Shown piece after piece: positions 1 through 50,559 of a stretch of 64,000 nucleotides of DNA (position 1 is the first letter of the stretch; each line of letters starts with the position of its first letter). The DNA is from Desulfobacterales bacterium. GTDB taxonomy: Bacteria; Desulfobacterota; Desulfobacteria; Desulfobacterales; JAFDDL01. Where the stretch lies: contig JAVEYW010000006.1 of the NCBI GenBank assembly GCA_034003325.1, positions 68,362 to 132,361 on the forward strand, in the 5' to 3' direction. A program made the position numbers and the translations under genes. The notes under the pieces were generated by a model. That model worked only from the letters and a program-made list of their open reading frames with translations. It was not told the DNA's origin and did not search any database.

Positions 1-326
1 AACATGCCGGTCACAAAAACGACCGCGCTGATCCTCAAAACCGATATACCGGCAGCCTGCATCGCGAGAAGTTCTCTCTGGTCGGCCATTTGCCCTAAAG
101 CAATAATGCCGCCAATAAGGGTACTTACGGGCATTAAATCGAGCAGACGTTTAGGCAGTGTCAGCGCCATAAAGATCACGGCATTATCCAGCCCGTAGGC
201 GCCTTTTCCCACATCGTCCAGTTGCGTTAATAACTCGATAAAACTGAACAACACCGCCAGAATGGCGAGGAGGAGGAAAACCCATTTAATAAAGCTGCTT
301 CCGATGTATAAATCAATTGTTTTCAT
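1..326 (-). CDS. lptG: LptG-type LPS export permease (3' part cut off by window edge)
   Basis: Only the first 108 codons are visible, read leftward from the ATG at 326. The protein begins MKTIDLYIGSSFIKW, followed by a long hydrophobic helix (about residues 14-33). Further on come an LPKRLLDLMPVSTLIGG segment and an ALGQMADQRELLAMQAAGIS segment, both typical of the YjgP/YjgQ permease family. In that family LptF and LptG form the inner-membrane channel that extracts lipopolysaccharide for the Lpt bridge. It lies 92 bp downstream of the lptF-like gene on the same strand, in the usual lptF-lptG order. The family call is firm. Whether the cargo is LPS or a different lipid is open, because a sphingolipid gene set starts 2 kb away. 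Confidence 0.88.
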   Translation of the reverse strand, partial: MKTIDLYIGSSFIKWVFLLLAILAVLFSFIELLTQLDDVGKGAYGLDNAVIFMALTLPKRLLDLMPVSTLIGGIIALGQMADQRELLAMQAAGISVLRISAVVFVTGM

Positions 327-418: not shown

Positions 419-1486
419 TTATCTGCGAAAAAATTCGGCTGGGCGGTATAAAAAGAAGATCGTCAAACCGGCCAGGAGAATTTGACCCCACCAGATTCCC
501 GGAAAGGGGTCTATAACCCCCTGTTCCACCCATTTTTTCAAAATCGCGGTAAAATAATAGTATCCCGCAAAAATTAAAATCGCTGTCGGCACCTTCGCGT
601 ATTTGCCTTCTCTGGGAAATGACCGGCTCAGCGGCACGCCGAGAAGCGCTAACAGGATAGTGGCTACCGGTGCGCTAAGTCTCCACTCTAATTCAGCTAT
701 TTCTTCCAGACGGTCGGATCTGATGAGGTTGTCGGTTGGAATCGTTTTAACCTCGTATGGCGCATTACGCGATTGGGGATTGTCCAATTTCAGAGACAAT
801 TTTTTGAAATTTAGCGTTCGCAATTCCTTACTGAGCCGCGGAAATTCGTACAAACTGCCGTTGTGAAACAGGATATGGGTCGTTTGTGTCTTTTCATCCA
901 AAACTTGTTCAGCGCGCTTGGCATACAGAATCTGAAGCTTATCGTTTCGTTTGGTTTGGACAAACACGCCATCCGCAAAATTTTTCTGATTGTCGACGGC
1001 ATCTGCAAAAACAGCCCGCTCCCCGTTGTCAACTTCATAAAAAATTCCACCCCTCATTCGTGTCAGATCGAAACTCATTTTTGCCTGAGCCTTTAACGCG
1101 AAAAAATAATGCCAGGCCCATGGTCGAATGTAAACCGAAAGAGATGCAACCATCATGCTGACGATAATGGAAAGGAAAAAAACGGATTTAAGTATTCGCG
1201 GGATACCGATGCCACAGGAAAAGAGGGCGACCATCTCGGAATCCCTGTAAAGGCGGCCAAGGGCAAGCACCACGGATACATACAGAGTGGTTGGTAACAG
1301 CACCTCCAATGCAATGGCCGCTCTGAGCAGAATTAAAAGGATCACCGTGGAACCGGGCAATTGACCGTAGACCGCATCTTCCAGATACCTTGATGAGATA
1401 TAACAACCGTAAATTATAATTAAAATCGTACATGTCGCCACGGCGGGTTTCAGTATTTCACGCTGGATATAACGATCAATAATCAC
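419..1486 (-). CDS. lptF: LptF-type LPS export permease
   Basis: 355 residues, a normal length for YjgP/YjgQ permeases. It has the expected plan: an N-terminal pair of membrane helices (residues about 15-35 and 50-75), a third helix near 100-120, a periplasmic beta-jellyroll region (about 140-265) and three C-terminal helices. The segment LLGVPLSRSFPREGKYAKVP near residue 285-300 is family-typical. The start is GTG at 1486, three bases after the stop of the nucleotidyltransferase gene, so the two genes are probably co-transcribed and translationally close. In the known system LptF and LptG form the transmembrane part of LptB2FG. No LptB ATPase gene is visible in the window. Confidence 0.88.
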   Translation of the reverse strand: MIIDRYIQREILKPAVATCTILIIIYGCYISSRYLEDAVYGQLPGSTVILLILLRAAIALEVLLPTTLYVSVVLALGRLYRDSEMVALFSCGIGIPRILKSVFFLSIIVSMMVASLSVYIRPWAWHYFFALKAQAKMSFDLTRMRGGIFYEVDNGERAVFADAVDNQKNFADGVFVQTKRNDKLQILYAKRAEQVLDEKTQTTHILFHNGSLYEFPRLSKELRTLNFKKLSLKLDNPQSRNAPYEVKTIPTDNLIRSDRLEEIAELEWRLSAPVATILLALLGVPLSRSFPREGKYAKVPTAILIFAGYYYFTAILKKWVEQGVIDPFPGIWWGQILLAGLTIFFLYRPAEFFRR

Positions 1487-2451: not shown

Positions 2452-3654
2452 ATGCTCACCGACAGGCAAACAGAAATGAATTTAAAAAAACAGGCGGTGG
2501 AGAAGCACTACTGCCTTCCCGGCAAGCCGTTGCATATCAAAAAAATAAACAGTAGACAAACAGGTAATGCGTTTATTCGCATGCCATGGCCGGTGTACAA
2601 AGACGACCCCATGTGGGTACCGCCCCTTCTGCTTGAACGGCGGATGCATCTTTCCCCTAAAAACCCCTATTTTGATCATGCCCGCTGCGGTTTTTGGATC
2701 GCATACCGGCATGGAAAACCAGTGGGAAGAATCAGTGCTCAAATCGATCAACTTCATCTTCAACGGTATCAGGACCGCACCGGTTTTTGGGGCATGCTGG
2801 AAGCCGAGGACAATGTTGATACGTTTCAGGCGCTGATGAACACGGCAGAGACCTGGTTGCAACGCCAAGGAATGACGCGGGCACGGGGGCCCTTTAATTT
2901 ATCCATCAACCAGGAATGCGGCTTACTCGTTGCAGGTTTTGACACCCCACCGTCGATTATGATGGGGCATGCACGGCCCTACTATCAAAAGCATATTGAA
3001 CAGTGCGGATATCAAAAGACCAAGGACTTATTCAGCTACACCATCGATTGGGGGTTCACCCATTCAGCAGCCATGCGGCTGATTATGAAAAGAACCCGGA
3101 ACCGCGTTCACACCCGACCGTTTCGAAAAGCGCACTTTCAGGAAGATTTAAATATCGTTCAAGACATCTTCAATGATGCCTGGTCCGGAAATTGGGGGTT
3201 TGTTCCTTTTACGCAGAAAGAATTTGACCACCTTGGAAAGGATCTAAAACTTCTGGTCAATGATAAACTGATTAGAATTGCCGAGGTGAATGGGGAGCCG
3301 GCCGCATTCATGCTGGTGCTTCCCAACCTCAATGAGGTGATTCGTGATTTAAACGGCAGGCTCTTTCCGTTTGGGTGGCTTAAATTGTTATGGCGCCTGA
3401 AAGTAAAATATCCTGAAACTGCGCGAATCCCGCTAATGGGCGTTCGCAGCCAATATCATGACAGTCTGTTGGGCGCGGCCCTGGCTTACCGGCTCATCGG
3501 CGATATTCAAGAGGCAGGGGAGGGGTGCGGTATCAAAAAACTTGAACTGTCCTGGATACTGGAAGATAATACGACGATGCGAAACATCATCACGAACATC
3601 GGCGGGACGGTATATAAAACGTATCGTATTTATGACAAACCGCTTTCAAGTTAA
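2452..3654 (+). CDS. bcerS: GNAT-fold acyltransferase, probable bacterial ceramide synthase
   Basis: 400 residues. The middle carries a GNAT-like core: WIAYRHGKPVGRISAQID near residues 83-100, and a conserved block GPFNLSINQECGLLVAGFDTPP near 144-165. A second acetyltransferase-like half runs through IAEVNGEPAAFMLVLPNLNEV. Long GNAT proteins of this type include the Caulobacter bacterial ceramide synthase, which N-acylates 3-ketosphinganine. The call rests on family resemblance plus the fatty acyl-AMP ligase, reductase, ACP and serine palmitoyltransferase genes within 7 kb. The start is uncertain: the ATGs at 2452 and 2476 both lack a strong ribosome-binding site. It is followed after six bases by a nucleotidyltransferase gene, suggesting co-transcription. 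Confidence 0.72.
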   Translation: MLTDRQTEMNLKKQAVEKHYCLPGKPLHIKKINSRQTGNAFIRMPWPVYKDDPMWVPPLLLERRMHLSPKNPYFDHARCGFWIAYRHGKPVGRISAQIDQLHLQRYQDRTGFWGMLEAEDNVDTFQALMNTAETWLQRQGMTRARGPFNLSINQECGLLVAGFDTPPSIMMGHARPYYQKHIEQCGYQKTKDLFSYTIDWGFTHSAAMRLIMKRTRNRVHTRPFRKAHFQEDLNIVQDIFNDAWSGNWGFVPFTQKEFDHLGKDLKLLVNDKLIRIAEVNGEPAAFMLVLPNLNEVIRDLNGRLFPFGWLKLLWRLKVKYPETARIPLMGVRSQYHDSLLGAALAYRLIGDIQEAGEGCGIKKLELSWILEDNTTMRNIITNIGGTVYKTYRIYDKPLSS

Positions 3655-3660
3655 GGGCGA

Positions 3661-4509
3661 ATGAAAATTTCCTCCCCGCATTTTACCGCCATTGTGCTGG
3701 CTGCAGACAGGGAATCGGTCAACCCGGTGGCCAAAGCCGCCGGTGTGCGGTGCAAATCACTGGCCCCGGTTAATGGGATTCCCATGGTCTTCGGGGTGAT
3801 GGCGGCATTATCTTCCGCCCGGAACATTAAGGACCAAATTCTATGCGGCCCCCCTGAACCCATCCTAAACCGGGAAGATCAACTGAAGGCACAGCTTGCC
3901 TCCGGTAATGTTCGATGGATTGAAAACAAGGCGACACCGAGCGCAAGTGCTTATCATGTGATGCAATCGCTGGCCCCGGGCATCCCCGTATTGTTAACCA
4001 CCAGCGACCATGCCCTGTTAACCGCTCAAATGGTCGATTACTTTTGTGTGAAAGCCCTATCGTCGGGATGCGATGTCGTCGCTGCCGTCGCCCTGCATAA
4101 AGCTGTAACCGCGGCTTACCCGGAAACGCATCGAACCGCTTATCGATTGAACGAAGGCGCTTATTGCGCATGTAACCTATTTGCCTTTTTGACGCCTCGC
4201 GGGCGGTCAGCCGCCTATTTCTGGCACCGTGTCGAGCAGCAGCGGAAAAGGCCATTGCGTGTCATCAGCGTTTTCGGGTGGATGACCGTGATACGGTATT
4301 TAACGAGGCGTCTGACCCTTTCCCAGGCTTTGAATCGAATATCACACCGGCTTGGATTTAAATCGGGCGTCGTTATCATGCCGTTTCCGGAGGCGGCCAT
4401 AGATGTCGACTCCGTGGATGATTGGCAACAGGTTCAACGGATTGCCGCAGGAAAAACAACGGATGCCCTGAAAGAAAATCGGCCGGTGTCGCCCCTTTCC
4501 TCATTTTAA
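3661..4509 (+). CDS. MobA-like NTP transferase, envelope-lipid context
   Basis: 282 residues with an N-terminal GT-A-type nucleotidyltransferase pattern (FTAIVLAADRE, then CKSLAPVNGIPMVFGVM) and the acidic metal site replaced by TTSDHALLTAQMVDYF near residue 117-132. It starts six bases after the ceramide-synthase-like gene, so it is probably translated from the same message. A nucleotidyltransferase gene is also associated with the Caulobacter sphingolipid locus and has been linked there to anionic ceramide head-group formation. A parallel role is inferred, not shown. Its last nine bases overlap the end of the convergent gene at 4501-5466. The substrate is unknown. Confidence 0.68.
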   Translation: MKISSPHFTAIVLAADRESVNPVAKAAGVRCKSLAPVNGIPMVFGVMAALSSARNIKDQILCGPPEPILNREDQLKAQLASGNVRWIENKATPSASAYHVMQSLAPGIPVLLTTSDHALLTAQMVDYFCVKALSSGCDVVAAVALHKAVTAAYPETHRTAYRLNEGAYCACNLFAFLTPRGRSAAYFWHRVEQQRKRPLRVISVFGWMTVIRYLTRRLTLSQALNRISHRLGFKSGVVIMPFPEAAIDVDSVDDWQQVQRIAAGKTTDALKENRPVSPLSSF

Positions 4510-5466
4510 TTCCGCATCACTAAGGTTAAGTATCAGATTTCCAAGCTTGGGATTTACCCCGCTAACCCTGATCGGCAACCGCCGGGAGGGATCGATATAA
4601 ATACAGATATCTTTTTCAAGACCCAGCAGCGAAAATGGTTCCGGTTTTATGGCAGGGGATACGGCCGGTAGCGCTGAAACGGAAAAAACGAGCGGTGTTA
4701 ACTGAGCCTCAACGCGATCATCGCCTGATGATGAATGCATCTTGAACGCTGTTTTTATCGGAAAGGATGCTTGCTCGTCAATGATCAGGCGATGAAACCG
4801 GGCTTTGCCGAAAACGCAGAGGACAGACGGCAACTTTCTGTATTCGAGGACTGATAACAGGTAACATAACATCGTCGAATCCGATATCACCAGGCACTCC
4901 CTCTCGTCGGGATAGGGGAAAAGCGATTGACTTTGACGGGTCCATTTGACGGGGGCCTGTTTTTTTTCATCAGGACTTGCAGGCATGATTTTTCGCCTTT
5001 GCACCCCTTGGCGCGTCCAATAATAGGCCTTGACCCAGGGATCGGTTCCGTGACGCTGCCTGATTCGACGATAGACCCGAGCATTTGCGGTATTAAACAA
5101 AATGTGTTCCGTGTATGTTGCATTAAAAAAAAGCAAATAGTGAACGGTGGTTTCAACCGTTAATAATGTCGTATTCTCGGCCATCTCCACACCATCGAGG
5201 GCTTTTCCTTCCCCTGTTGTGATCAAATCGCCGGGCATTTCGGCAGTGCTCGTTAGCTGAATTCGAGTGGTTATTTTAGCCGAGGTTCCCGAGCCATCAA
5301 AGGTTAGGCGCTTCCAGGAAGAGGGGGGCAAGAAAGTGCATGAACGCATATCCCCACCCGCAACGGCTGCATGAGCGCTCCCGATCAGTGTCAGGAGAAA
5401 CAAATAAATTGTTATCCGTTTATTTAAAAGCGTTCCGTGCAATGGCATCCTGGTGCTGTGGTTCAA
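4501..5466 (-). CDS. Exported protein of unknown function, DUF3108-like
   Basis: 321 residues. The N-terminus has a short basic stretch and a hydrophobic helix (about residues 16-33) ending in SAHAA, a plausible signal peptidase I site, so the mature protein should be periplasmic. The rest is predicted beta-rich, with many alternating hydrophobic positions. It ends DICIYIDPSRRLPIRVSG, similar in kind to the tail of DUF3108-type periplasmic proteins that often sit beside envelope-lipid genes. No catalytic motif was recognised. It is convergent with the nucleotidyltransferase (9 bp overlap) and divergent from the acyl-AMP ligase. A part in handling or exporting the local lipid is only a guess. 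Confidence 0.6.
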   Translation of the reverse strand: MNHSTRMPLHGTLLNKRITIYLFLLTLIGSAHAAVAGGDMRSCTFLPPSSWKRLTFDGSGTSAKITTRIQLTSTAEMPGDLITTGEGKALDGVEMAENTTLLTVETTVHYLLFFNATYTEHILFNTANARVYRRIRQRHGTDPWVKAYYWTRQGVQRRKIMPASPDEKKQAPVKWTRQSQSLFPYPDERECLVISDSTMLCYLLSVLEYRKLPSVLCVFGKARFHRLIIDEQASFPIKTAFKMHSSSGDDRVEAQLTPLVFSVSALPAVSPAIKPEPFSLLGLEKDICIYIDPSRRLPIRVSGVNPKLGNLILNLSDAELK

Positions 5467-5738
5467 GGCCTGTCGGCGGCTGAAGTTGGTAAATAAGTTG
5501 ACAAAGATGATGACAGAAATAAGGGCGAATGGTTAACATTATCAGTTATCAGCGAATACCACCCGTTCGAAATTTTTGAATTCCACTGGTTGATTTTTCA
5601 ATCGCTACCATATAACAATAAAACGCAAAAAAATATGTCCATTGTCGGTCGCAAGTAAAAATTCAACAAATGACCGATGTGGTGATGCGGCGATTCACTT
5701 TTTGAACGAACAATCCTCAAGGGAGAACCCCTCGCGCT
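5467..5738. other. Divergent intergenic region, no confident regulatory site
   Basis: This 272 bp AT-rich stretch separates the leftward exported protein from the rightward ceramide operon and should carry both promoters. A TTGACA hexamer occurs near 5499-5504, but no convincing -10 box follows it. No clear palindrome was found. The AAGGGAG near 5720 lies about 14 bases before the ligase ATG, further than usual. Confidence 0.3.
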
Positions 5739-7508
5739 ATGCAGGCAACGTCGACCGGCAATAGGTTTCAGGCAAACAAAACCTCTTTTTTTTCAACCCT
5801 TGCAGAGGCCTTGGATTACGCGGCCCAAGGACAGACCGGATACAATTTTTATTCCGGAAAGGGCAAGCTGATTACGGCACTTCCATACGATACGCTACGC
5901 AGCGAGGCGAAAATCCTGGCAAAAAAATTCAACCATCTGGGCGTCACCCGGGGCGCCCGCATGGCGTTGGTTGCGAATACCCATCCGGACTTTGTCCGTT
6001 TTTTTTTCGCTTGCCAATATGCCGGAATAACGCCGGTTCCATTGCCGGCTCAAATTCAATTGGGCGGTCACAACGCATACGTGACACAGCTTGCGCGATT
6101 GCTCTCTATTTGCCGACCCGATCTGGCGATGGCGACGGAAGATTTTTTTCCTTTTTTGACGGAAGCCGCCGAAAAATTAAATTTTCTTTTTCTGGGAAGT
6201 CCCAAAGACTACGATAGCCTTCCGGAAGCGGATACCCCGCCACACCCCGTTGAGCCGACCGATTTGGCTTATCTGCAATATACATCCGGAAGCACTCGCT
6301 TTCCGCGTGGCGTCATGATTACACAACGAGCGGTTTTAAACAACCTGTCCGCCATTATAAAACAGGGCCTTCGGATTCGACCGGGAGATCGCGCGGTATC
6401 CTGGCTTCCCTTTTTTCACGATATGGGGTTGGTCGGGTTGCTGTTAGCGCCGATGGCATGCCAGATATCCGTCGATTATTTGAGTACCCGGGATTTTGCC
6501 ATGCGTCCTCGGTTATGGCTAAAGCTCATGTCTGAAAATCGAGCCACCATTTCTTTTAGCCCGCCGTTCGGTTACGATTTGGTTTCGCGGTGTCTTAGAG
6601 ACAACGAACCGCAACCCTATGACCTGAGCGCATGGCGAGTCGCTGGTGTCGGCGCGGAAATGATTCGGACCGAATCGCTTGAAACATTTGCCCATATTTT
6701 GAAACATTGCGGTTTTACTGCCCGTTCGTTCCTGCCGTGCTACGGCATGGCGGAATGCTCCCTTGCCGTATGTTTCGGCGAGCTGGGCAATGGGGTGCAG
6801 GTGGATTGCGTTGATGCGAATCTTCTCGCGAATCAGAATCGGGCAATACCCGTCGCTGCAACAAAAGATAATCACGAGGGCAGATTCAACACGTTTGTGA
6901 ATTGCGGCGAGCCGCTTCCCGGATATGAAATATCGGTTCGGGATCCTAATGGGCAAGCACTTCCGGAACGACATTGTGGTGAGCTTTTTTTAAGGGGACC
7001 CAGCGTCATGTCCGGCTATTTTGGTGATTTAAAAGCCACACAAGACGTTCTTTCCCGGGATAATTGGCTCAACACGGGCGATAAAGCTTACAAAATTGGT
7101 GACTGTGTCGTTATTACAGGACGTCAAAAAGACTTGATTATCATAAATGGCCGCAATATTTGGCCTCAGGACATCGAGTTTCTGGTTGAATCACATCCCG
7201 AAATACGGACAATGGATGCGTTGGCGTTCTCGGTACCCGGCCCAAAGGGCGAAGAGGTGGCTGTCATCATGATCCAATGCCGCTTGACCGACCCCCAAAA
7301 ACGCGCTGATCTGGTAGACTATGTTCGCCGCTTGGTTCGTGAGGAGCTGGGAATAGACAGCCTCATCGAACTCGTCCCTCGAAACACCATTCCTCGAACG
7401 ACGTCCGGAAAGCCATCCCGCTCCGGTGCGCGAAAGGAGTATCTTAAGCGTTTCGCTGAGAATCAAGTCGATGGCTGCGATGAAAAACGGCGTGCCGAAG
7501 CGTGTTGA
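5739..7508 (+). CDS. aasR: Fatty acyl-AMP ligase / acyl-ACP synthetase of the ceramide pathway
   Basis: 589 residues, the normal size for fatty acyl-AMP ligases. The AMP-binding motif YTSGSTRFPRGVM lies near residues 181-193, GYGMAECSLA-type adenylation residues (CYGMAECSLAV) near 333, and NTGDKAY near 445. ITGRQKDLIIINGRNIWPQDIE near 465-487 is the signature that separates these ligases from acyl-CoA synthetases. The enzyme should adenylate a fatty acid and pass it to the acyl carrier protein encoded downstream. In Caulobacter the homologous step (AasR) loads AcpR for serine palmitoyltransferase. It heads a same-strand run: ligase, reductase, ACP, synthase, ABC exporter. Confidence 0.83.
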   Translation: MQATSTGNRFQANKTSFFSTLAEALDYAAQGQTGYNFYSGKGKLITALPYDTLRSEAKILAKKFNHLGVTRGARMALVANTHPDFVRFFFACQYAGITPVPLPAQIQLGGHNAYVTQLARLLSICRPDLAMATEDFFPFLTEAAEKLNFLFLGSPKDYDSLPEADTPPHPVEPTDLAYLQYTSGSTRFPRGVMITQRAVLNNLSAIIKQGLRIRPGDRAVSWLPFFHDMGLVGLLLAPMACQISVDYLSTRDFAMRPRLWLKLMSENRATISFSPPFGYDLVSRCLRDNEPQPYDLSAWRVAGVGAEMIRTESLETFAHILKHCGFTARSFLPCYGMAECSLAVCFGELGNGVQVDCVDANLLANQNRAIPVAATKDNHEGRFNTFVNCGEPLPGYEISVRDPNGQALPERHCGELFLRGPSVMSGYFGDLKATQDVLSRDNWLNTGDKAYKIGDCVVITGRQKDLIIINGRNIWPQDIEFLVESHPEIRTMDALAFSVPGPKGEEVAVIMIQCRLTDPQKRADLVDYVRRLVREELGIDSLIELVPRNTIPRTTSGKPSRSGARKEYLKRFAENQVDGCDEKRRAEAC

Positions 7509-7614
7509 TTTCGGACCGGCGCCATTTTTTCATCGCAAATGAGGCTGGCATAATGGGTTCGAATCGTTCAAACATTTCTCAATATGGCGCCAGCGAAGGG
7601 ATTTCCGTCTTTTT

Positions 7615-8547
7615 ATGCCGAACAGGATTGCTCTAACAGGCGCGACCGGGTTCATCGGCGGTATGATCGCCCAACGGTTGATATTCGGCGGGTGGCAAGT
7701 TCAAGCCCTGGTCCGTCCCACTTCGATTCATAAATGCTCAAACAAGAGCCCCATCAAGTGGATATTAGGTGATCTGGACGACCTCGCGAGCCTTCGGTCT
7801 TTGGTTCACGGCGCAGATGCCGTGGTGCATTGCGCAGGCGCTGTCCGTGGTTTCAATCCAATGGATTTTGAGCGGATCAATACCGGCGGTGTGGCGCGAT
7901 TGGTGCAGGCGGCAACCGAGCAATGTCCCATTCCCCGCTTTTTATTGATTTCCTCTTTAGCCGCGCGTGAACCGCATCTTTCGCCATATGCCGCGAGCAA
8001 ACAAAAGGGGGAAAAAGCGCTGGCCGCCATTTCAGAGAAAATGATGTGGAGCATTTTCAGGCCGTCTGCCGTATATGGCCCTGAAGACCGGGAACTTTTT
8101 CCGCTTTTTCAATGGATGGCAAAAGGGGTCGCCCCCATTATCGGCGGTGACGAAAACCGGTTTTCGCTTCTGTATGGGGAAGATTTGGCGGAGGCGGTTA
8201 TCTGCTGGCTTCATCACGGCGCACGATCCCGATGCCTATATGAACTGCATGACGGACATGCGGGTGGATACGCATGGAAAGAGGTTGTAAGGATTGTGTC
8301 GCAACTACACCGAAAACCCATCGGCCGTGTAAACATTCCGGTATCCTTGTTAAGGTTTCTATCCGTGCTGAATGTGACGGCCGCGCGGATCGCTGGCCGC
8401 GCCCCCATGCTAACACCCGGAAAAGTTCGAGAATTGATTCATTCCGACTGGGTGGCTGACAACACGGCGTTGATGCGCGACACGAAGTGGGCGCCGAAAG
8501 TCACTTTGGCGGAAGGGCTCAGGCAAACGTTCAGGCTCGGGGCATAG
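7615..8547 (+). CDS. cerR: NAD-dependent epimerase/dehydratase, probable ceramide reductase
   Basis: 310 residues with the extended short-chain dehydrogenase plan. The Rossmann motif GATGFIGGMIAQRL is at residues 8-21, HCAGAVRG near 72-80, a catalytic serine in LLISSLAA near 111, and YAASK (catalytic Tyr and Lys) near 125-129. In the Caulobacter pathway a member of this family (CerR) reduces the 3-oxo group after N-acylation. The assignment relies on position between the acyl-AMP ligase and the acyl carrier protein. The alternative is a sugar epimerase, but no other sugar-nucleotide genes flank it. The gap to the ligase gene is 106 bp. Confidence 0.75.
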   Translation: MPNRIALTGATGFIGGMIAQRLIFGGWQVQALVRPTSIHKCSNKSPIKWILGDLDDLASLRSLVHGADAVVHCAGAVRGFNPMDFERINTGGVARLVQAATEQCPIPRFLLISSLAAREPHLSPYAASKQKGEKALAAISEKMMWSIFRPSAVYGPEDRELFPLFQWMAKGVAPIIGGDENRFSLLYGEDLAEAVICWLHHGARSRCLYELHDGHAGGYAWKEVVRIVSQLHRKPIGRVNIPVSLLRFLSVLNVTAARIAGRAPMLTPGKVRELIHSDWVADNTALMRDTKWAPKVTLAEGLRQTFRLGA

Positions 8548-8593
8548 ACGCCCATTACCAGATCGTATTTGAAAATTTAAAAGGATGTATTTC

Positions 8594-8845
8594 ATGACAA
8601 CAAACGACGAGGTGATAGCCAAAATTTTGGATATATTGATCCCCCTGGTTCCGGCGGGAGTAGAAATCACGGCCAAAACGGAGATGACAGCCGATTTGGG
8701 CCTTGATTCGCTTAAGGTAATGAAAATTTTGGAGCGTCTTGAAGACGATTTTGACATTTCGATTCCGATCAATATTCTGCCGAAAATTCGCACCATCGGT
8801 GATTTAAGCCTGCAAATCGAAAAATTAAAAGGGAATGGGTGTTAA
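8594..8845 (+). CDS. acpR: Acyl carrier protein dedicated to sphingolipid synthesis
   Basis: 83 residues. The ATG at 8594 is preferred over 8585 because AAAAGGA precedes it by eight bases. The phosphopantetheine attachment motif is GLDSLKVMKIL, with the modified serine near residue 36, and the rest forms the usual four-helix acyl carrier protein pattern. It should receive a fatty acyl chain from the upstream ligase and present it to the downstream synthase. The stop codon overlaps the synthase start by one base (TAATG), indicating translational coupling and a matched stoichiometry. Confidence 0.87.
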   Translation: MTTNDEVIAKILDILIPLVPAGVEITAKTEMTADLGLDSLKVMKILERLEDDFDISIPINILPKIRTIGDLSLQIEKLKGNGC

Positions 8846-10017
8846 TGGGATTATTTGATAAATTTCAGCCGCTGGCTGAGAGGCGTCAGGCGATGAGAGA
8901 AAACGGCATCGAGTTTTTTAACATCGTCATGGAAGATATTATCTCGGCGACTGAAGCCGTTGTGAATGGCCGCCCCGTGATTCTCGCCGGAAGCAATAAT
9001 TATTTGGGCCTGACGTTTAACCCCGAATGTATTCGCGAAGCATGCCGGGCCGTCCAAAAAGAAGGAACCGGCACCACCGGATCACGAATGGCCAATGGGA
9101 CCTTCTCGGGACACGTGGCTTTGGAAGCGGAACTCTCCCGTTTTTTTAACCGCAGGGATACCATCGTGTTTTCTACAGGATATATCGCCAACCTATCCAT
9201 TCTGTCCACGGTTGTAGGCCCCGGAGAGGTCATTCTCATCGATGCCGATTGCCACGCCAGTATCTACGATGGATGTCGAATGGGCGGGGCGGAGGTGATC
9301 CGTTTTCGGCATAACGATGCAACGGATTTGGAAAAACGCCTCAAACGGCTTGAAAACAGAAAAACCAACGTATTGGTTGCGGTTGAAGGAATTTATAGCA
9401 TGCTGGGGGATCGGGCGCCCTTGGCGAACATTGCAGCATTGACCCAGCAATACGGCGCCTATTTAATGGTCGATGAAGCCCACTCATTGGGCATTCTTGG
9501 CGAGAACGGCCGGGGCCTGGCTGAGGAGGCCGGCGTTGAAGACAGCGTCGATTTCATCATCGGCACCTTTAGCAAAAGCCTTGGGGCCATTGGTGGCTTT
9601 TGCACAAGTAATCATCCGGAATTGAATCTGATTCGCTATGCAAGCCGGCCCTATGTGTTTACCGCGTCCCCCTCTCCGTCAAGTATTGCATCCACACGCA
9701 AAGCCTTGCAGATGATGATCTCTCATCCGGAGTTGAAACATCGACTTTGGAAAAATGCGAAAGATCTCTACCGACGTCTCAAAGCGTCGGGATTTTCTTT
9801 GGGACCGGCGCCCAGTCCCATTATCGCCGTTTGTTACGATCAAGAAAAGGCGGCCATCGCGGATTGGAACCGGTTGTTGGCAAGCGGCATTTATGTCAAC
9901 ATGGTGTTACCGCCGGCCACGCCTGATGGAAAGGCGCTGCTGCGCTGCAGTTTGAGCGCCGCTCACACGGATGAGCAGGTTCAAAAAATAGGAGAGGTGT
10001 TTGCTTCCTTACGTTAA
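8845..10017 (+). CDS. spt: Serine palmitoyltransferase (alpha-oxoamine synthase family)
   Basis: 390 residues from the ATG at 8845. A GTG six bases upstream is possible, but the ATG shares a base with the ACP stop. This is a PLP-dependent alpha-oxoamine synthase: GTGTTGSRMANGTFSGHVALE is the substrate-loop region near residues 75-95, LMVDEAHSLGILG carries the aspartate that contacts PLP nitrogen, and TFSKSLG holds the PLP lysine near residue 244. The family also includes KBL and BioF. The serine palmitoyltransferase call rests on the dedicated ACP, ligase, reductase and ceramide-synthase-like genes around it. The expected reaction is serine plus acyl-ACP giving 3-ketosphinganine, CO2 and ACP. 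Confidence 0.83.
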   Translation: MGLFDKFQPLAERRQAMRENGIEFFNIVMEDIISATEAVVNGRPVILAGSNNYLGLTFNPECIREACRAVQKEGTGTTGSRMANGTFSGHVALEAELSRFFNRRDTIVFSTGYIANLSILSTVVGPGEVILIDADCHASIYDGCRMGGAEVIRFRHNDATDLEKRLKRLENRKTNVLVAVEGIYSMLGDRAPLANIAALTQQYGAYLMVDEAHSLGILGENGRGLAEEAGVEDSVDFIIGTFSKSLGAIGGFCTSNHPELNLIRYASRPYVFTASPSPSSIASTRKALQMMISHPELKHRLWKNAKDLYRRLKASGFSLGPAPSPIIAVCYDQEKAAIADWNRLLASGIYVNMVLPPATPDGKALLRCSLSAAHTDEQVQKIGEVFASLR

Positions 10018-10064
10018 GTTACGGGGCAAAAACACACTTAATCAGTCCCAAACAGATTGTCGCC

Positions 10065-11783
10065 ATGCGCCTTATTATCACCTTTGTTCATCGCTATCCC
10101 ATTCAAAGCCTGTTCACGCTAATAGCCACGCTTTTGGCGGGTATTTCCGAGGGATTCGGCATCTCGATGCTGGTTCCGCTGTTGGGCATTGCGATGGGCG
10201 CCCCCGGATCACTCGGCGCTTCACATCGATCCGGCTCTGCAATGGAAGGAATTATTACCGGCTTTTTAACTGCAACCGGAATGCCCTCAACCCTTGGTGT
10301 TATGCTGTTTATTTTTGTTGTGAGCATCATGTTGAAAGCCATCCTGGTTCTTCTGGCCAACAAGCAGGTGGGATACATGGTTGCCCGGGTGGCCACGGAT
10401 CTTCGGTTGGCCCTGATTGGCGCCCTGTTTGCGACGCGTTGGGAATATTATGTCAACCAACCGGTCGGCCGATTCACCAATGCCTTTGCGACAGAGGCCA
10501 AACGCTCATCGGATGCCTTCCTCTATGGAATCAGGGCCATTGCGTTTTCGCTGCATGCGGTTATTTACGCCATCGTCGCCCTGTTGCTGGGGTGGAAGAT
10601 AACCCTCATCACCTTAGGCGCCGGTATTCTCATTCTATATGTGCTTCGACGCCTGGTTACAAAAGCAAAAAAAGCCGGCGCCCAGCAAACCAGACTGCTT
10701 AAATCGCTGCTGTCTCTCTTGACCGATACACTCCAATCCATCAAGCCGCTTAAATCCATGGCCCGGGAAAACGAGGCCGATTCGGTGTTACAGAGAGAAA
10801 CAAAGCAGCTCAATGCGGTATTGCAAAAACAGGTGTTCAGTGAAGAGGCCCTGCGAGCACTTCAGGAACCGCTCGTTATTATTTTTTTTGCTTTTGGGCT
10901 TTATGTGGCGCTCGTTTGGTGGCAACTACCGCTCGCCAAGGTCATCATTATGGTTTATATGTTGGCCAAGACTTTGAAAACGCTTCAAAAAGCCCAGAAA
11001 GAATACCAGTCCATGGTCATTGCGGAAAGCGCCTACTGGTCCCTGATGGCAAAAATAAAAGAGGCCGAAAATGAACGGGAAACCAGCGTCGGAACCCTCC
11101 TGCCCACCTTTACTCATTCGATCCGTTTTGAAGCGGTCAGTTTCTCGTATGGAGACCGTTTTGTACTCAAGAATATATCGTTGTCATTTCCAAAGGGGTC
11201 TTTCTCGGTCATTATCGGGGCCTCCGGCGCAGGAAAAACCACACTGATTGATTTGATCACCGGTCTTTTGGGCCCGCAAGCCGGGAAGCTCTGGATTGAT
11301 GACATTCCGCTATCAACTGTGGATATCAAGGCATGGCGTCACATGATCGGGTATGTGCCCCAGGAAAGCCTCCTTTTACACGATTCGGTGTTTATGAATG
11401 TGACGTTGGGTGATCCGTCGCTAACTGAAAAGGACGTGGCGCAAGCCTTGCAGAATGCGGGGGCTTTGCGCTTTGTAGCCGAGATGCCTCACGGAATTCA
11501 TAGCTCTGTCGGGGAAAAAGGCGCTCGCCTGTCAGGGGGACAACGGCAGCGGATCACCATCGCAAGGGCGCTGGTCCATAGACCGGAGCTGTTAATTCTG
11601 GATGAGGCCACCAGTTCCCTTGATCCGGACAGTGAGGCGGCAATTTGCGCTACGCTATATCAGCTAAGGGGAAAACTTACGATCATATCTATCTCACATC
11701 AGAAAGCATTGCTGCATGTGGCGGACAGGGGCTATCGATTAACCAACGGTGTTGTCGAGGTGCTAGAAAAAAAATGCATGTAA
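10065..11783 (+). CDS. MsbA-like ABC exporter, membrane and ATPase domains fused
   Basis: 572 residues. Residues 1-300 form a type IV (MsbA-like) membrane domain with about six helices. The nucleotide-binding domain follows: Walker A GASGAGKTTLI near 385-395, ABC signature LSGGQRQR near 487, Walker B LLILDEATSSLD near 508-519 and the switch histidine in ISISHQK near 541. It lies 47 bp after the serine palmitoyltransferase gene on the same strand and is the last gene of the run. Exporters of this type flip lipids or lipid-linked sugars, so moving ceramide-based lipid across the inner membrane is a likely job, by context only. Confidence 0.8.
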   Translation: MRLIITFVHRYPIQSLFTLIATLLAGISEGFGISMLVPLLGIAMGAPGSLGASHRSGSAMEGIITGFLTATGMPSTLGVMLFIFVVSIMLKAILVLLANKQVGYMVARVATDLRLALIGALFATRWEYYVNQPVGRFTNAFATEAKRSSDAFLYGIRAIAFSLHAVIYAIVALLLGWKITLITLGAGILILYVLRRLVTKAKKAGAQQTRLLKSLLSLLTDTLQSIKPLKSMARENEADSVLQRETKQLNAVLQKQVFSEEALRALQEPLVIIFFAFGLYVALVWWQLPLAKVIIMVYMLAKTLKTLQKAQKEYQSMVIAESAYWSLMAKIKEAENERETSVGTLLPTFTHSIRFEAVSFSYGDRFVLKNISLSFPKGSFSVIIGASGAGKTTLIDLITGLLGPQAGKLWIDDIPLSTVDIKAWRHMIGYVPQESLLLHDSVFMNVTLGDPSLTEKDVAQALQNAGALRFVAEMPHGIHSSVGEKGARLSGGQRQRITIARALVHRPELLILDEATSSLDPDSEAAICATLYQLRGKLTIISISHQKALLHVADRGYRLTNGVVEVLEKKCM

Positions 11784-33713: not shown

Positions 33714-33770
33714 TTTTTCTGTTTTTTTCTTGACTCCGTTTTCGTGTTTTGTTTTCATACAACGTATTCA

Positions 33771-33930
33771 GGTGCTCTGAAAGGAGCCGAAGAGGGAACC
33801 CCGTGTGAATCGGGGACGGGCCCGCCGCTGTATTCGGGGACGAAAGCAGCATGATGCCACTGATTTTTTTAAGAAGAATCGGGAAGGCGCTGCCGTTAGG
33901 TGAATCCGAAAGTCAGAAGACCTGCCTGAA
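33771..33930 (+). ncRNA. Cobalamin (B12) riboswitch
   Basis: The element begins GGTGCTCTGAAAGGAGCC and contains GAGGGAACCCCGTGTGAATC, CGGGCCCGCCGCTGTA and GATGCCACTG. It then reaches GGGAAGGCGC and ends with the B12 box AGTCAGAAGACCTGCC (33911-33926). These follow the order and spacing of the cobalamin aptamer. A TTGACT at 33730-33735 upstream could be its -35 box. A strong intrinsic terminator follows at 33999-34032. No cobalamin-related gene follows it on this strand. Confidence 0.9.
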
Positions 33931-33998
33931 TGAAGAGCCGCTGTTTTCTCGTGGATAGAGGAAGGCTCACTGATTCAGCCGGAGAGAAAAGGGATATT

Positions 33999-44146: not shown

Positions 44147-46429
44147 TTACACTTTCTGGTCTTGAACACAAATGTTCAGGGCCGCCAGTTCGTCCCGGAG
44201 TTTATCGGCCAAATTCCAGTTTTTTTCCTTACGGGCAGCTTCGCGGGCCTGAATCAGGCTTTGAATGTGGGCATCATTCCGCGGCCGGCTGAAATCAAAA
44301 ATCTGAAGAACGGAGTTGATTCCTTGAAAACAATCCAGTATTTTTTCGGCGTCCGTTGGGTCGATACGCCCCTCGGCTATCAGCCGGTTGATCTTTTTAA
44401 CTACCTTAAAGAGAGAAGCGATGGCCGCGGAAATGTTGATATCCATATCCATGGCGGAGACAAACCCTTGCTTTAGGTCATAGAGCAGTTGGTTCAACTC
44501 GAGGTAGGGTTGGCCCGCCGTTATGCTTTCAAGTGAGTGAATGCAAGCGTCCAATCGGCCTAAAGATCGCCGGGTGCTTTCAAGCTGTTTGATCGAAAAA
44601 AGAATCGGCTTTCGATAATGGCTGGATAGAAGCCAGTATCGAATTTCCCTGCCGCTGTAACCTAACTCCGTTAAGCCGTTTAAGGTCATGCGGGCAGTAT
44701 CTCCCACTTTTTTCCCGTCTACTCTTACCTGTTCGCAGTGAAGCCAGTAATTGGCCATCGGTTTACCGGTCAGCGCTTCGGACAGGGCGATTTCGTTTTC
44801 GTTGTGGGGAAAAATAAGCTCGCGGCTGCTGATGTAGATGTCGAAATTATTTCCAAGGTATTTCATAGCGATAGCGGTGGATTGAATGTGCCAGGACGGC
44901 CGGGCGTTACCCCATTGCGTTTTAAAGAAAAGCCCTTTTTTTAACTCGGATAGGGTGATTCGCTTCATCAGGGTAAAATCCCTGGGATTGTCCTTTTCGT
45001 ATTCATCCAGGTCCACGGTGGCGCCAAGCTTTATTTTGTAGATATCAATGCCCGATAGTTTGCCGTAACCGGAGAACCGGGAGATATCAAAATACAGAGA
45101 ACGAAGTTTTTCGTAAGCGTATCCTTTCGTTGCCAGCCGCTCGGCCAGGTGAATCATATCCTCTATGTTTTCACTTGTTCTGGGGTGCTTAACGTTCGAA
45201 TGAATGGTCAGCAGGGTAAGGTTTCGCTGGTAGTCTTCCAATTGCTGACGGGTAAATGCTTCGAGGCTGGTGCCGGCTTTCTCCGCATCCTGAATGGTTT
45301 TGTCATCTAAATCGGTCACATGGACCACATGCGACACCTCATATCCCCGGTAGGAAAAGTAACGACCCAGAAGATCCGCGAAAACGAGCCGGCGGTATTC
45401 CCCCAGGTGCATTCGCGTGTGCGCGGTGGGGCCGCAGGTGAATAGGGTGACTTTTTCGGGCTGAATGGGTCGAAACCAAGCTTTTTCGCGCCGCAACGTG
45501 TCAAAAAGGATCAGATCAACCTTATCCTTTTCTGCAAAAAGGGAGGTGCTTAAATACCGCTCTCCGCCATCGGGAAAAATGACGACAATGATGCCTTCGC
45601 TCATGACGGCGGCCTGTTCACGAGCGACCACCATGGCGGCGCCGCTGCTCATTCCAACGAAAATGCCTTCTTTACGAGCCAGTTGCCTGGCCATTTCATA
45701 GGCGGGCTCGTCCTCCACGTTCACCTTGCTATCCAGACGACTTTTTTCAAAAATGCCGGGGCAATAGGCTTCTTTCAGGTTTTTAAGGCCCTGTAGTTTA
45801 TGCCCTAAATAAGGCTCTACGCCCACAATCCGAATGGCCGGGTTGTATTCCTTTAACCTTCTGGATAACCCCATGAGGGTGCCGGTCGTCCCCATGGTCG
45901 CCACCAGCATTGTGATTGTTCCCTCGGTTTGCGCCCAGATTTCGGGGGCCGTGCCGTAATAATGGGCTTTATAATTCGCTTCGTTATTGAACTGGTCCGT
46001 TACAAAATACTGATCCGGATGCTCTCTGGCCATGCGGTAGACTTCTTCAATGGCACCGTCCGTTCCCAGATGCCCCGGGGTAAGAAGAATTTCGGCGCCG
46101 CGGGCCTTAAGGATCTTGCGTCGCTCTTCACTGGCGGTTTCGCTCATGGCCAGCAGAAGCTTGTATCCTTTTACCGCGCAGACCATGGCCAGGCCGATGC
46201 CGGTATTTCCGCTGGTTGCTTCAATCACCATCTTGTTCGGCGTCAGCTCGCCGGATTCTTCCCCGGCCTTTATCATGTAATACGCTGCCCTGTCCTTAAT
46301 GGAGCCGCCCGGGTTCAGATATTCGAGTTTTGCGAAGATACGAACCTTCGGGTTCGGGCTCAACTGTTTGATTTCAACCAACGGCGTGTTGCCGATGATG
46401 TCCAGAATGGTTTTCCCTTCCATCGTCAT
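44147..46429 (-). CDS. Fusion of cysteine synthase and degenerate cysteinyl-tRNA synthetase
   Basis: 760 residues. Residues 1-300 are a complete cysteine synthase: PLP lysine in GGSIKDR (Lys45), TSGNTGIGL (72-80), GTTGTLMG (180-187), SSGAAM (261-266). Residues 308-760 follow the cysteinyl-tRNA synthetase fold, including CGPT (332-335, zinc ligand Cys332) and the C-terminal AARKEKNWNLADKLRDELA. Several active-site features are changed. HIGH reads HLGE (341-344). The second zinc cysteine in WHIECS is Ser (WHIQST, 513-518), while His542 and Glu546 are kept. KMSKS is replaced by KVGDT (574-578). It may therefore not charge tRNA-Cys, and a separate cysS would be expected elsewhere. It lies 23 bp after tmk. 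Confidence 0.85.
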   Translation of the reverse strand: MTMEGKTILDIIGNTPLVEIKQLSPNPKVRIFAKLEYLNPGGSIKDRAAYYMIKAGEESGELTPNKMVIEATSGNTGIGLAMVCAVKGYKLLLAMSETASEERRKILKARGAEILLTPGHLGTDGAIEEVYRMAREHPDQYFVTDQFNNEANYKAHYYGTAPEIWAQTEGTITMLVATMGTTGTLMGLSRRLKEYNPAIRIVGVEPYLGHKLQGLKNLKEAYCPGIFEKSRLDSKVNVEDEPAYEMARQLARKEGIFVGMSSGAAMVVAREQAAVMSEGIIVVIFPDGGERYLSTSLFAEKDKVDLILFDTLRREKAWFRPIQPEKVTLFTCGPTAHTRMHLGEYRRLVFADLLGRYFSYRGYEVSHVVHVTDLDDKTIQDAEKAGTSLEAFTRQQLEDYQRNLTLLTIHSNVKHPRTSENIEDMIHLAERLATKGYAYEKLRSLYFDISRFSGYGKLSGIDIYKIKLGATVDLDEYEKDNPRDFTLMKRITLSELKKGLFFKTQWGNARPSWHIQSTAIAMKYLGNNFDIYISSRELIFPHNENEIALSEALTGKPMANYWLHCEQVRVDGKKVGDTARMTLNGLTELGYSGREIRYWLLSSHYRKPILFSIKQLESTRRSLGRLDACIHSLESITAGQPYLELNQLLYDLKQGFVSAMDMDINISAAIASLFKVVKKINRLIAEGRIDPTDAEKILDCFQGINSVLQIFDFSRPRNDAHIQSLIQAREAARKEKNWNLADKLRDELAALNICVQDQKV

Positions 46430-48153: not shown

Positions 48154-50559
48154 ATGCGTAATACCGGCCGGTGCCACTTGAGAAAGGGGCTGAAAAGAAC
48201 TTTGAAGAAAAAGACCTGCCATCATTTGGCCGATTTATGCCACAAGCCGTCTTGCATTCGGGGGAAACAAAACCCGCTCTCACTGTCTTTCCAATGGTTG
48301 TTTTTTATTTTCGCAGCTTGCTGGTTGCTATCGTTCGGCAGCCTGACGAATGCCGCTGATCTGGAAAAATATTTTGAGGCGGACCCCTCTTCTCCCTGGC
48401 GGATCAACGCGGACAACATGACCTATGATAAAAACACCGACCAGACCACTGCCAGCGGCAATGCGATTATTCAAAAGCAGAATGTGCGGCTTACCGCGGA
48501 TGAAGTTCGCTATAACCGTACCAGCCTGAAAGGAGAGGCGCAGGGAAATGTGACGATTACCTCAGGGGCGGATGCGCTGACCGGTGAGCGAATGGAAATG
48601 GATTTATCGACCGGCACCGGAACGCTCTATGACGGCACGCTTTTTTTGAAAGAGAAAAATTATCATGTCTCGGGCCAAAAGATTCAAAAAACGAGTGAGA
48701 ATGAATATTCCGCTGAAAACGTGAAAATTACCACCTGTGACGGTGATGTCCCCGCATGGTCCATCTCGGGGCAAACGCTTGATGTCACGCTGGATGGGTA
48801 TGGTGTTGTTCACCATGCGGTATTTCGGGTGAAGGACATTCCCCTTCTTTACACGCCCTTTTTTATGTTTCCCGCTAAATCCAAACGTCAGTCCGGTCTG
48901 CTGATGCCTCAGTTCGGCAGTTCTGATCGAAAGGGGGCCGAGTATATTCAGCCGTTCTTTTGGGCGATTTACGAGAATTCCGACATGACCCTTTACGAGC
49001 ATTTCATGGGCGAACGGGGAAATAAACTCGGATTGGAGTATCGTTATGTCTTGAGTGAAGATAGCCGCGGCACACTTATGGCGGATGGATTCAAGGACCG
49101 AAAGGTGGATGACGGAACTGGAAGCACCACCGCGGATTACGGGTATCTGGACGGTTACGGGCTTCGGCCCAATTCCGACCGTTACTGGTTCAGAGCAAAA
49201 CATGATCAGGCGCTTCCCTTCGACATCTCGGCTCAATTGGATCTGGATATTCTCAGCGACCAGGACTACCTGCATGAATTTAAATCCGGATACGCCGGTT
49301 TTGATGACAGCGACGCTAATTTTTTAAAGTATTTCGGACGGGATCTGGAAGATTATAATGATCCGGTTAGGACCAACCGGCTGAAGCTGAACCGGCTTTG
49401 GTCCAGTGTCAGCATGAACACTGAGGTTCGCTGGCTTGATGATGTGGTTGCGCGCCGCCGGAACACGGAAGATGAAACGGTGCAGCGACTTCCCGAAGTA
49501 TCGGTTGCCGGTGCCCGGCAGACCCTCTTCAACATGCCGCTATTCGTTGGATTTGAAACCGAATACGCCTATTTTTACCGGGAAGACGGAACCCGGGGCC
49601 ATCGGACGGATGTTTATCCGCGGTTTTATCTGCCTTATCGTTTCGGCAACTATCTGAGTGCGGAGCCATCGGTCGGGCTGCGGGAAACCGTATGGCATCT
49701 GGATAAATTTGATGACTTTATAGGGGATACAGACCGGACCATGAACCGGGAGACCTATGATTTTAAACTCGATTTTTCATCGGAACTGCACCGGGTCTAT
49801 CCTATCGACACCGACTGGGCCGATCGAATGAAGCATATCATGCGGTTTCAGGTCGGATATGAGTACGTGCCCGAGCTCAGCCAGAGCAAATACCCGGAAT
49901 TTGATGAGATTGACCGTCTTGAAAACAGAGACCTCATTGTCTATTCATGGACGCACAGTTTCGTTACCCGATCGATCATTCAACGGCCCGAGGACGCCAA
50001 GGGAACCGGGAAAGATCTTCCGGATTACGATTATCACCAGATCGCGCGGATAAAATTTGAACAAAGCTATGATATTTTCAGAGAGGATGAGGATCTTCCG
50101 GAACCTTTTTCACCCATTACGACCGAGATAGAATTTAGCCCCTGGCAGAGCATCTCTTTGCTGGCGGATACGGCGTGGTCCGCCTATGACCATAAATTCA
50201 TTGCTCATAATGTGGCCTGCCGGCTTTCCGATACCAGAGGAGATGAATTTTATATTGAACGCCGTTATAGGAAGGATCAGCTGGAAACGATTTACATGGA
50301 TGTGGTCATGCAGGCCACTTCATGGCTGTGGGTGTACGGGAATTTCGAACGAAATTTGCTGGACAGTCGGGATATTGAGAAAGGTGCCGGCGTTTCATTT
50401 AAAGCCGGATGTTGGTCCGTTAACATCGGATACGCCAAGGAAGACGAAGACGAGCAGTTATTATTCTCCATATCACTTTATGGATTGGGGGAATTTGGCT
50501 CTGGCGGCCGCGCCATCGGGAAAACCCCTTATTACGAGCGCTGGGATAGGACCGATTAA
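48154..50559 (+). CDS. lptD: LPS assembly outer-membrane protein LptD
   Basis: 801 residues. A long basic N-terminus precedes a signal-type helix (about residues 47-68, ending LTNAAD). An OstA/LptA-like beta-jellyroll domain follows (about 75-185, with INADNMTYDKNTDQTTASGNA (split: INADNMTYD, DQTTASGNA) and GEAQGNVTITSGAD). The barrel domain from about 200 to 801 has many alternating aromatic strands and LLYTPFFMFPAKSKRQSGLLMP (in parts: LLYTPFFMFP, SKRQSGLLMPQFG). LptD with LptE inserts lipopolysaccharide into the outer leaflet. No lptE is adjacent. The ATG at 48154 gives an unusually long leader; a later start is possible. Confidence 0.87.
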   Translation: MRNTGRCHLRKGLKRTLKKKTCHHLADLCHKPSCIRGKQNPLSLSFQWLFFIFAACWLLSFGSLTNAADLEKYFEADPSSPWRINADNMTYDKNTDQTTASGNAIIQKQNVRLTADEVRYNRTSLKGEAQGNVTITSGADALTGERMEMDLSTGTGTLYDGTLFLKEKNYHVSGQKIQKTSENEYSAENVKITTCDGDVPAWSISGQTLDVTLDGYGVVHHAVFRVKDIPLLYTPFFMFPAKSKRQSGLLMPQFGSSDRKGAEYIQPFFWAIYENSDMTLYEHFMGERGNKLGLEYRYVLSEDSRGTLMADGFKDRKVDDGTGSTTADYGYLDGYGLRPNSDRYWFRAKHDQALPFDISAQLDLDILSDQDYLHEFKSGYAGFDDSDANFLKYFGRDLEDYNDPVRTNRLKLNRLWSSVSMNTEVRWLDDVVARRRNTEDETVQRLPEVSVAGARQTLFNMPLFVGFETEYAYFYREDGTRGHRTDVYPRFYLPYRFGNYLSAEPSVGLRETVWHLDKFDDFIGDTDRTMNRETYDFKLDFSSELHRVYPIDTDWADRMKHIMRFQVGYEYVPELSQSKYPEFDEIDRLENRDLIVYSWTHSFVTRSIIQRPEDAKGTGKDLPDYDYHQIARIKFEQSYDIFREDEDLPEPFSPITTEIEFSPWQSISLLADTAWSAYDHKFIAHNVACRLSDTRGDEFYIERRYRKDQLETIYMDVVMQATSWLWVYGNFERNLLDSRDIEKGAGVSFKAGCWSVNIGYAKEDEDEQLLFSISLYGLGEFGSGGRAIGKTPYYERWDRTD

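Follow-up and report, generated by a model that had tools for sequence, protein, structure and literature searches.

A 15-gene block that probably makes and exports a ceramide phosphoglycerate-type sphingolipid in a Desulfobacterota bacterium

The five-gene set for ceramide synthesis has been published for alpha-, beta- and gammaproteobacteria (PMC11324152), and distant AcpR and AasR have been reported in myxobacteria. In Caulobacter, knock-outs showed that CC_1160 and CC_1161 are required for ceramide phosphoglycerate (CPG), and CC_1159, CC_1158, CC_1153 and CC_1152 for CPG2 (PMC11324152). Homologues of serine palmitoyltransferase (Spt-like) occur with the bacterial ceramide synthase bCerS and with CerR in metagenome-assembled genomes (MAGs) of many phyla in the Black Sea, with Desulfobacterota as probable producers (PMC11334938). 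Here we analysed a 64-kb stretch (the window) of a Desulfobacterales genome whose DsrA lies above its cut-off, in agreement with the initial annotation of a probable sulfate reducer. The window carries most of a sphingolipid block that probably makes and exports a phosphosphingolipid of the CPG/CPG2 type. This reading, in which all reactions and the lipid itself are inferred, draws on orthology, gene order, kept substrate residues, predicted folds and a separate LptFG lineage.

The block runs from cpgC to an ABC exporter gene and comprises 15 genes in 16,956 bp. The ceramide genes bcerS, aasR, cerR, acpR and spt were all found within 2452-10017 of the window, the start of which falls inside the block. 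The left part lies on the same contig before window position 1 and encodes LptG, a calcineurin-type phosphoesterase, a CDP-alcohol transferase, a diacylglycerol kinase (DAGK)-type kinase and a protein matching Tam41 in Pfam; on this side cpgC, cpgB, cpgA and the phosphoesterase gene adjoin the window part. The initial annotation had described a ceramide cluster at 2452-11783. The pathway stands on family cut-offs, a tree and synteny with Caulobacter-type loci, but the span was too narrow, as headgroup and export genes flank it and lie mostly outside. Likewise, both nucleotidyltransferases ascribed to that span are real, but one (1490-2284) sits to its left. Because headgroup and export genes flank the ceramide genes, ceramide phosphoglycerate is the likely product. 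The block genes that reach into the window are:

1..326, minus strand: lptG2, 5′ part, with the rest left of the window (contig 67620-68687); LptF_LptG Pfam 220.6 vs 27.9, tree 100/99
419..1486, minus strand: lptF2, a second LptF permease by Pfam and NCBIfam, distinct from the housekeeping lptF of the same genome
1490..2284 (likely start ATG 2251), minus strand: cpgD, putative CTP:phosphoglycerate cytidylyltransferase; 47% to Caulobacter-type CpgD, 11 of 11 substrate positions
2452..3654, plus strand: bcerS, putative GNAT-type bacterial ceramide synthase; 45% to the Caulobacter-type locus
3661..4509, plus strand: MobA/CofC-like nucleotidyltransferase, counterpart of CC_1153; NTP_transf_3, with family and bcerS-adjoining place as in the Caulobacter-type locus
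4501..5466, minus strand: exported beta-rich protein with an EipB/DUF1849-like predicted fold; model, family conservation and presence in the block of genomes G416, G172 and G167
5739..7508, plus strand: aasR, putative fatty acyl-AMP ligase / acyl-AcpR synthetase; NF006624 754 vs 600, 43% to the Caulobacter-type locus
7615..8547, plus strand: cerR, putative ceramide reductase of the short-chain dehydrogenase/reductase (SDR)/epimerase fold; Pfam, 31% and same position in the Caulobacter-type locus
8585..8845, plus strand: acpR, dedicated acyl carrier protein; PP-binding Pfam, DSL phosphopantetheine site
8845..10017 (longest open reading frame from 8839), plus strand: spt, putative serine palmitoyltransferase; NF047599 618 vs 500, tree
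10065..11783, plus strand: ABC exporter, candidate inner-membrane flippase; ABC_tran and ABC_membrane Pfam

The block is more than a chance assembly, given that all 15 genes recur with order and orientation unchanged in G416, from another family of the phylum (33-64% identity). Genome G010, of the same order as the source genome, is by firm inference that of Desulfococcus multivorans DSM 2059, and it too carries the locus. Nitrospirota, Rokubacteria, Nitrosospira, gammaproteobacteria and alphaproteobacteria also have similar clusters, and the locus is thus widespread. Only a minority of Desulfobacterota have it, Spt exceeding its cut-off in 18 of 395 genomes; CpgC accompanies Spt in 17 of these 18 (hypergeometric P ~1e-21, uncorrected for kinship). 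Escherichia coli E69 and its relatives (L120 and other Escherichia loci) have the ceramide core and LptFG2, with no cpg genes in the stretch examined.

Caulobacter-type loci were drawn from several genomes of an order that includes a Parvularculaceae genome. Three of these genomes encode a 253-amino-acid CpgD with all 11 published residues at exactly the published numbers, and for that reason we assigned them to Caulobacter, in the C. crescentus group; their loci follow the gene order CC_1152 to CC_1165. By tblastn, 12 of the 15 block genes matched the reference locus L247, one of the three, at 29-56% identity: Spt 56%, AcpR 47%, CpgD 47%, bCerS 45%, AasR 43%, CpgA 41%, phosphoesterase 38%, CerR 31%, the CofC-like protein 30%, CpgC 30%, CpgB 29%, and LptG 29% across 102 residues only. 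LptF fell under the threshold, and the ABC exporter and the exported protein were unmatched; the Caulobacter-type locus instead has LptC and, at the place of CC_1166, a 497-amino-acid protein without a Pfam match. All five Rhodobacteria-type ceramide genes (aasR, cerR, acpR, spt and cerS) are among the matches (31-56%), which bears out the Caulobacter-like set of five first annotated here. So are the counterparts of CpgA, CpgB, CpgC, CpgD, CC_1153 and CC_1158 (six of six, 29-47%), and the block holds a counterpart of each of the six genes CC_1160, CC_1161, CC_1159, CC_1158, CC_1153 and CC_1152 named above.

In the pathway that we propose, AasR would load a fatty acid onto AcpR, Spt would condense the AcpR-bound acyl group with serine, bCerS would attach the amide acyl chain and CerR would reduce the 3-oxo group. 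CpgB would then phosphorylate the ceramide, and the Tam41-like CpgC would use CTP to activate ceramide 1-phosphate, probably to CDP-ceramide. CpgD would make CDP-glycerate, from which CpgA would transfer phosphoglycerate, with the CofC-like transferase and the phosphoesterase assisting. Finally, the ABC exporter would flip the lipid and LptF2/LptG2 would lift it towards the outer membrane.

Caulobacter CpgD makes CDP-glycerate (PMC12275187), contacting CTP and glycerate through G12, R16, T88, N90, T93, N110, G111, M147, K161, S170 and W201 (PMC13228409). All 11 positions are kept in the window CpgD, ten as identical residues and T93 as Ser, which retains the hydroxyl. An alternative is that ceramide is made as proposed but carries another phospho-alcohol (such as phosphocholine, phosphoethanolamine or inositol phosphate), the enzyme being a LicC-like cytidylyltransferase with a different substrate. 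The closest solved structure by sequence is indeed a CTP:phosphocholine cytidylyltransferase (1.3e-16), and the family accepts several substrates (PMC12275187). Given the kept contact positions, the 47% identity to Caulobacter-type CpgD and the whole CPG2 gene set surrounding the cytidylyltransferase, we consider another headgroup unlikely. Caulobacter CpgB is a ceramide kinase that has GGDG but not CxxxCxxC (PMC10331486); CpgB of the source genome agrees, having GGDG at residue 92 and no CxxxCxxC. Homologues of CpgB are reported from many bacterial classes (PMC10331486).

An NDP-activated ceramide has been proposed for Caulobacter (PMC11324152), and a later paper called the mechanism of CpgC unidentified (PMC12275187). 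The CpgC of the block matches Pfam PF09139 (Tam41) at 30.7 vs 24, and YGS and D61 are invariant in its alignment. A model from 28 homologues (predicted local distance difference test, pLDDT, 89) aligned with Tam41 bound to CTP-Mg at Z 18.0 over 229 residues (root-mean-square deviation 3.4), and the next family, aminoglycoside nucleotidyltransferases, reached Z 7.3 over 113 residues. Tam41 is the mitochondrial CDP-diacylglycerol synthase, which converts phosphatidate and CTP to CDP-diacylglycerol. The likeness of CpgC to Tam41 (6ig4, 7ecd) lies in the predicted fold (Z 17-18 over 224-229 residues), whereas sequence identity is 16-18% and ceramide 1-phosphate would take the place of phosphatidate as substrate. 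Fold and place in the pathway suggest that CpgC converts ceramide 1-phosphate and CTP to CDP-ceramide, and it is on account of the Tam41-like predicted fold that we place CDP-ceramide among the proposed intermediates. In D. multivorans, two full-length cpgA copies (L191 10267-11454 and 12499-13698) flank cpgC, whereas the source genome has one; one of the two CpgA copies could be the user of CDP-ceramide, which we offer as a lead only.

The genome carries two LptF/LptG pairs, one in the block and a housekeeping pair elsewhere, which rules out the block pair as the sole, housekeeping one. Block LptF exceeds the cut-off of the lipopolysaccharide (LPS)-export family (316.6 vs 230), and LpxC was found in the genome, indicating that LPS is probably also made. 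The block pair might hence serve LPS and stand near sphingolipid genes merely by position. This is rather improbable, since the housekeeping pair scores better and the tree unites the block pair not with it but with pairs that belong to sphingolipid clusters in Nitrospirota, Rokubacteria, beta- and gammaproteobacteria (LptF 100/100, LptG 100/99); pairs from alphaproteobacterial clusters branch separately. The block as a substitute for absent LPS is likewise unsupported, as LpxC is present and LptD, the outer-membrane LPS assembly protein, is encoded at window 48154-50559. The exporter initially annotated as MsbA-like is present as an ABC exporter, but 'MsbA-like' is loose: it scores 230.1 for TIGR02203 (MsbA) against a cut-off of 602. 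Its gene also adjoins spt in D. multivorans, G028, G416 and Pseudomonas veronii.

The product of 4501-5466 is exported and beta-rich, as first described. Its family has 24 invariant columns across eight relatives, and it lies within the block in three other genomes (G416, G172 and G167). Of 58 relatives, 9 have bCerS; the protein was found in 6 of these 9 and in 1 of the remainder (P ~1.4e-5, uncorrected for kinship). The model (pLDDT 78) resembles 6ntr, the Brucella DUF1849 protein known as EipB, in its beta fold (Z 14.4); its likeness to LolA- and RseB-type proteins is weaker. The resemblance to EipB is in predicted fold only: identity is 8%, and the protein has no Pfam match even at E up to 1, which leaves it outside the EipB/DUF1849 family by that measure. 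Our guess is that it may take part in periplasmic lipid handling. As a stand-in for LptC2 it was not adopted: it has no LptC Pfam match, and LptC is not among the fold matches listed, which leaves that role possible.

The synthase scores 618.1 for the curated serine palmitoyltransferase family NF047599 (cut-off 500) and falls below the cut-offs for BioF (327 vs 426), Kbl (325 vs 460) and 5-aminolevulinate synthase (ALAS); by sequence, its closest relatives of solved structure are bacterial serine palmitoyltransferases. A tree of 60 sequences places it inside a 45-row clade (100/100) with Spt from Sphingomonas, Roseomonas, Nitrospirota, Escherichia and other Desulfobacterota, set apart from E. 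coli BioF, E. coli Kbl and a second paralogue encoded in the same genome; outgroup branches are long, and separation only, not outgroup order, is claimed. The initial annotation had posed Spt against KBL/BioF as the question for a tree, and at sequence level the synthase falls with Spt. Cut-off and tree together support its predicted identity as a serine palmitoyltransferase. Recent transfer from Alphaproteobacteria is unsupported, as the phylum's Spt form their own group (86/84, slightly below the mark). The TAATG coupling of acpR and spt was confirmed (TAA 8843-8845, ATG 8845-8847). bCerS has a weak GNAT match (23.5 vs cut-off 20.7) and returned nothing useful in a sequence search of the PDB; it is 45-63% identical to bCerS from other clusters, and a single scan confirmed 569 relatives.

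Many Desulfobacterota (L042, L044, L046, L049, L050 and others) carry a second Spt-like type, below the cut-off and grouping with a Bacteroidota sequence, which may comprise the 1-deoxyceramide makers of the phylum. Its occurrence, together with the reported Black Sea correlation between 1-deoxyceramides and Desulfobacterota MAGs (PMC11334938), raises the alternative that the window synthase takes alanine or another amino acid and leads to 1-deoxyceramides or sulfonolipids. But a ceramide kinase and headgroup set require the 1-hydroxyl that serine supplies, and it is the window's Spt type that CpgC so consistently accompanies, which makes this alternative very unlikely. A synthase of Kbl/BioF type that serves other metabolism beside unrelated neighbours, as the shared alpha-oxoamine synthase superfamily and a best Pfam match to the merely general Aminotran_1_2 might allow, is ruled out for practical purposes by the family cut-offs, the tree, the coupling to AcpR and the conserved 15-gene order.

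Several points weigh against a CPG-type product and its export as proposed. The reference locus L247 was assigned to Caulobacter from CpgD residue numbers and is not a named C. crescentus record, and CpgB and CpgC are only ~30% identical to the Caulobacter-type locus. Caulobacter CpgA is dispensable for the first phosphoglycerate (PMC11324152), for which reason we leave the enzyme that uses CDP-ceramide unassigned; full-length CpgA was absent from the relatives G028 and G053. Neither LptC2 nor the CC_1166 flippase is among the 15 block genes (LptC was not looked for elsewhere in the genome), and the block exporter, of ABC type, differs from CC_1166. In the published survey, Nitrosomonas eutropha and two gammaproteobacteria likewise lack orthologues of CC_1168 and CC_1166 (PMC11324152). 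Finally, Black Sea data link Desulfobacterota to 1-deoxyceramides (PMC11334938), which lack the 1-OH for phosphorylation.

More tentatively than the CPG-type product itself, we propose that Desulfobacterota sulfate reducers including D. multivorans may have an outer membrane consisting partly of CPG, delivered by a dedicated LptFG2 common to several phyla and given its headgroup via CDP-ceramide made by CpgC. Sphingolipids of anoxic water and sediment have so far been linked to Desulfobacterota by co-abundance only, and now that the complete locus is seen in a sulfate reducer that can be cultured, that link is open to a pure-culture test: because the D. multivorans type strain carries nearly the same block, the lipid can be sought there. 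No flippase or transporter had been identified before (PMC11087976), and the locus predicts both a headgroup and a dedicated export route. It also offers a concrete enzyme activity for CpgC, the mechanism of which stood as unidentified (PMC12275187).

In the open-access literature searched, subscription papers lying outside the search, we came across neither the headgroup and LptFG2 half in Desulfobacterota nor the relation of CpgC to Tam41, and the literature searched contained no description of CDP-ceramide as an activated sphingolipid. The novelty first claimed for a full ceramide set outside Bacteroidota and Alphaproteobacteria does not hold, as it was already published for beta- and gammaproteobacteria (PMC11324152).

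Beyond the block lie sugar genes on the left and a TauE-type permease gene on the right, with no evident tie to it. Elsewhere in the window, one open reading frame (ORF) on the minus strand (44147-46429) fuses a cysteine-synthase-type pyridoxal phosphate (PLP) enzyme with a cysteinyl-tRNA synthetase (PALP and tRNA-synt_1e Pfam), a cobalamin riboswitch lies at 33753-33943 (115.7 bits vs gathering 31.5), and a 1260-amino-acid ORF at 59294-63076 encodes a long GlmS-like protein with glutamine amidotransferase and SIS domains.

Among the systems compared, the locus of D. multivorans DSM 2059 at 1.50-1.52 Mb shares 14 of the 15 genes (42-72% identical), differing in its two cpgA copies around cpgC and in the EipB-like exported protein, which was not found there. 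The Black Sea MAG clusters share Spt-like, bCerS and CerR homologues and count Desulfobacterota among the probable producers, but the main text of the paper mentions no phosphoglycerate headgroup and the lipids tied to Desulfobacterota are 1-deoxyceramides (PMC11334938). With C. crescentus CC_1168-CC_1152 (PMC11324152; cpgA-D, PMC12275187), the block shares the aasR-cerR-acpR-spt order, bcerS beside a CofC-like gene, cpgD, cpgA-cpgB-cpgC, the phosphoesterase and a second LptF/LptG. It differs in its host, a sulfate reducer, in lacking LptC2 and the HIT gene, in adding the EipB-like exported protein and in its ABC exporter, which is unmatched in the Caulobacter-type locus, where CC_1166 is the proposed flippase. 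Relative to known loci, then, the block is distinguished at the sequence level by a predicted exporter of another type and by one added, predicted exported protein.

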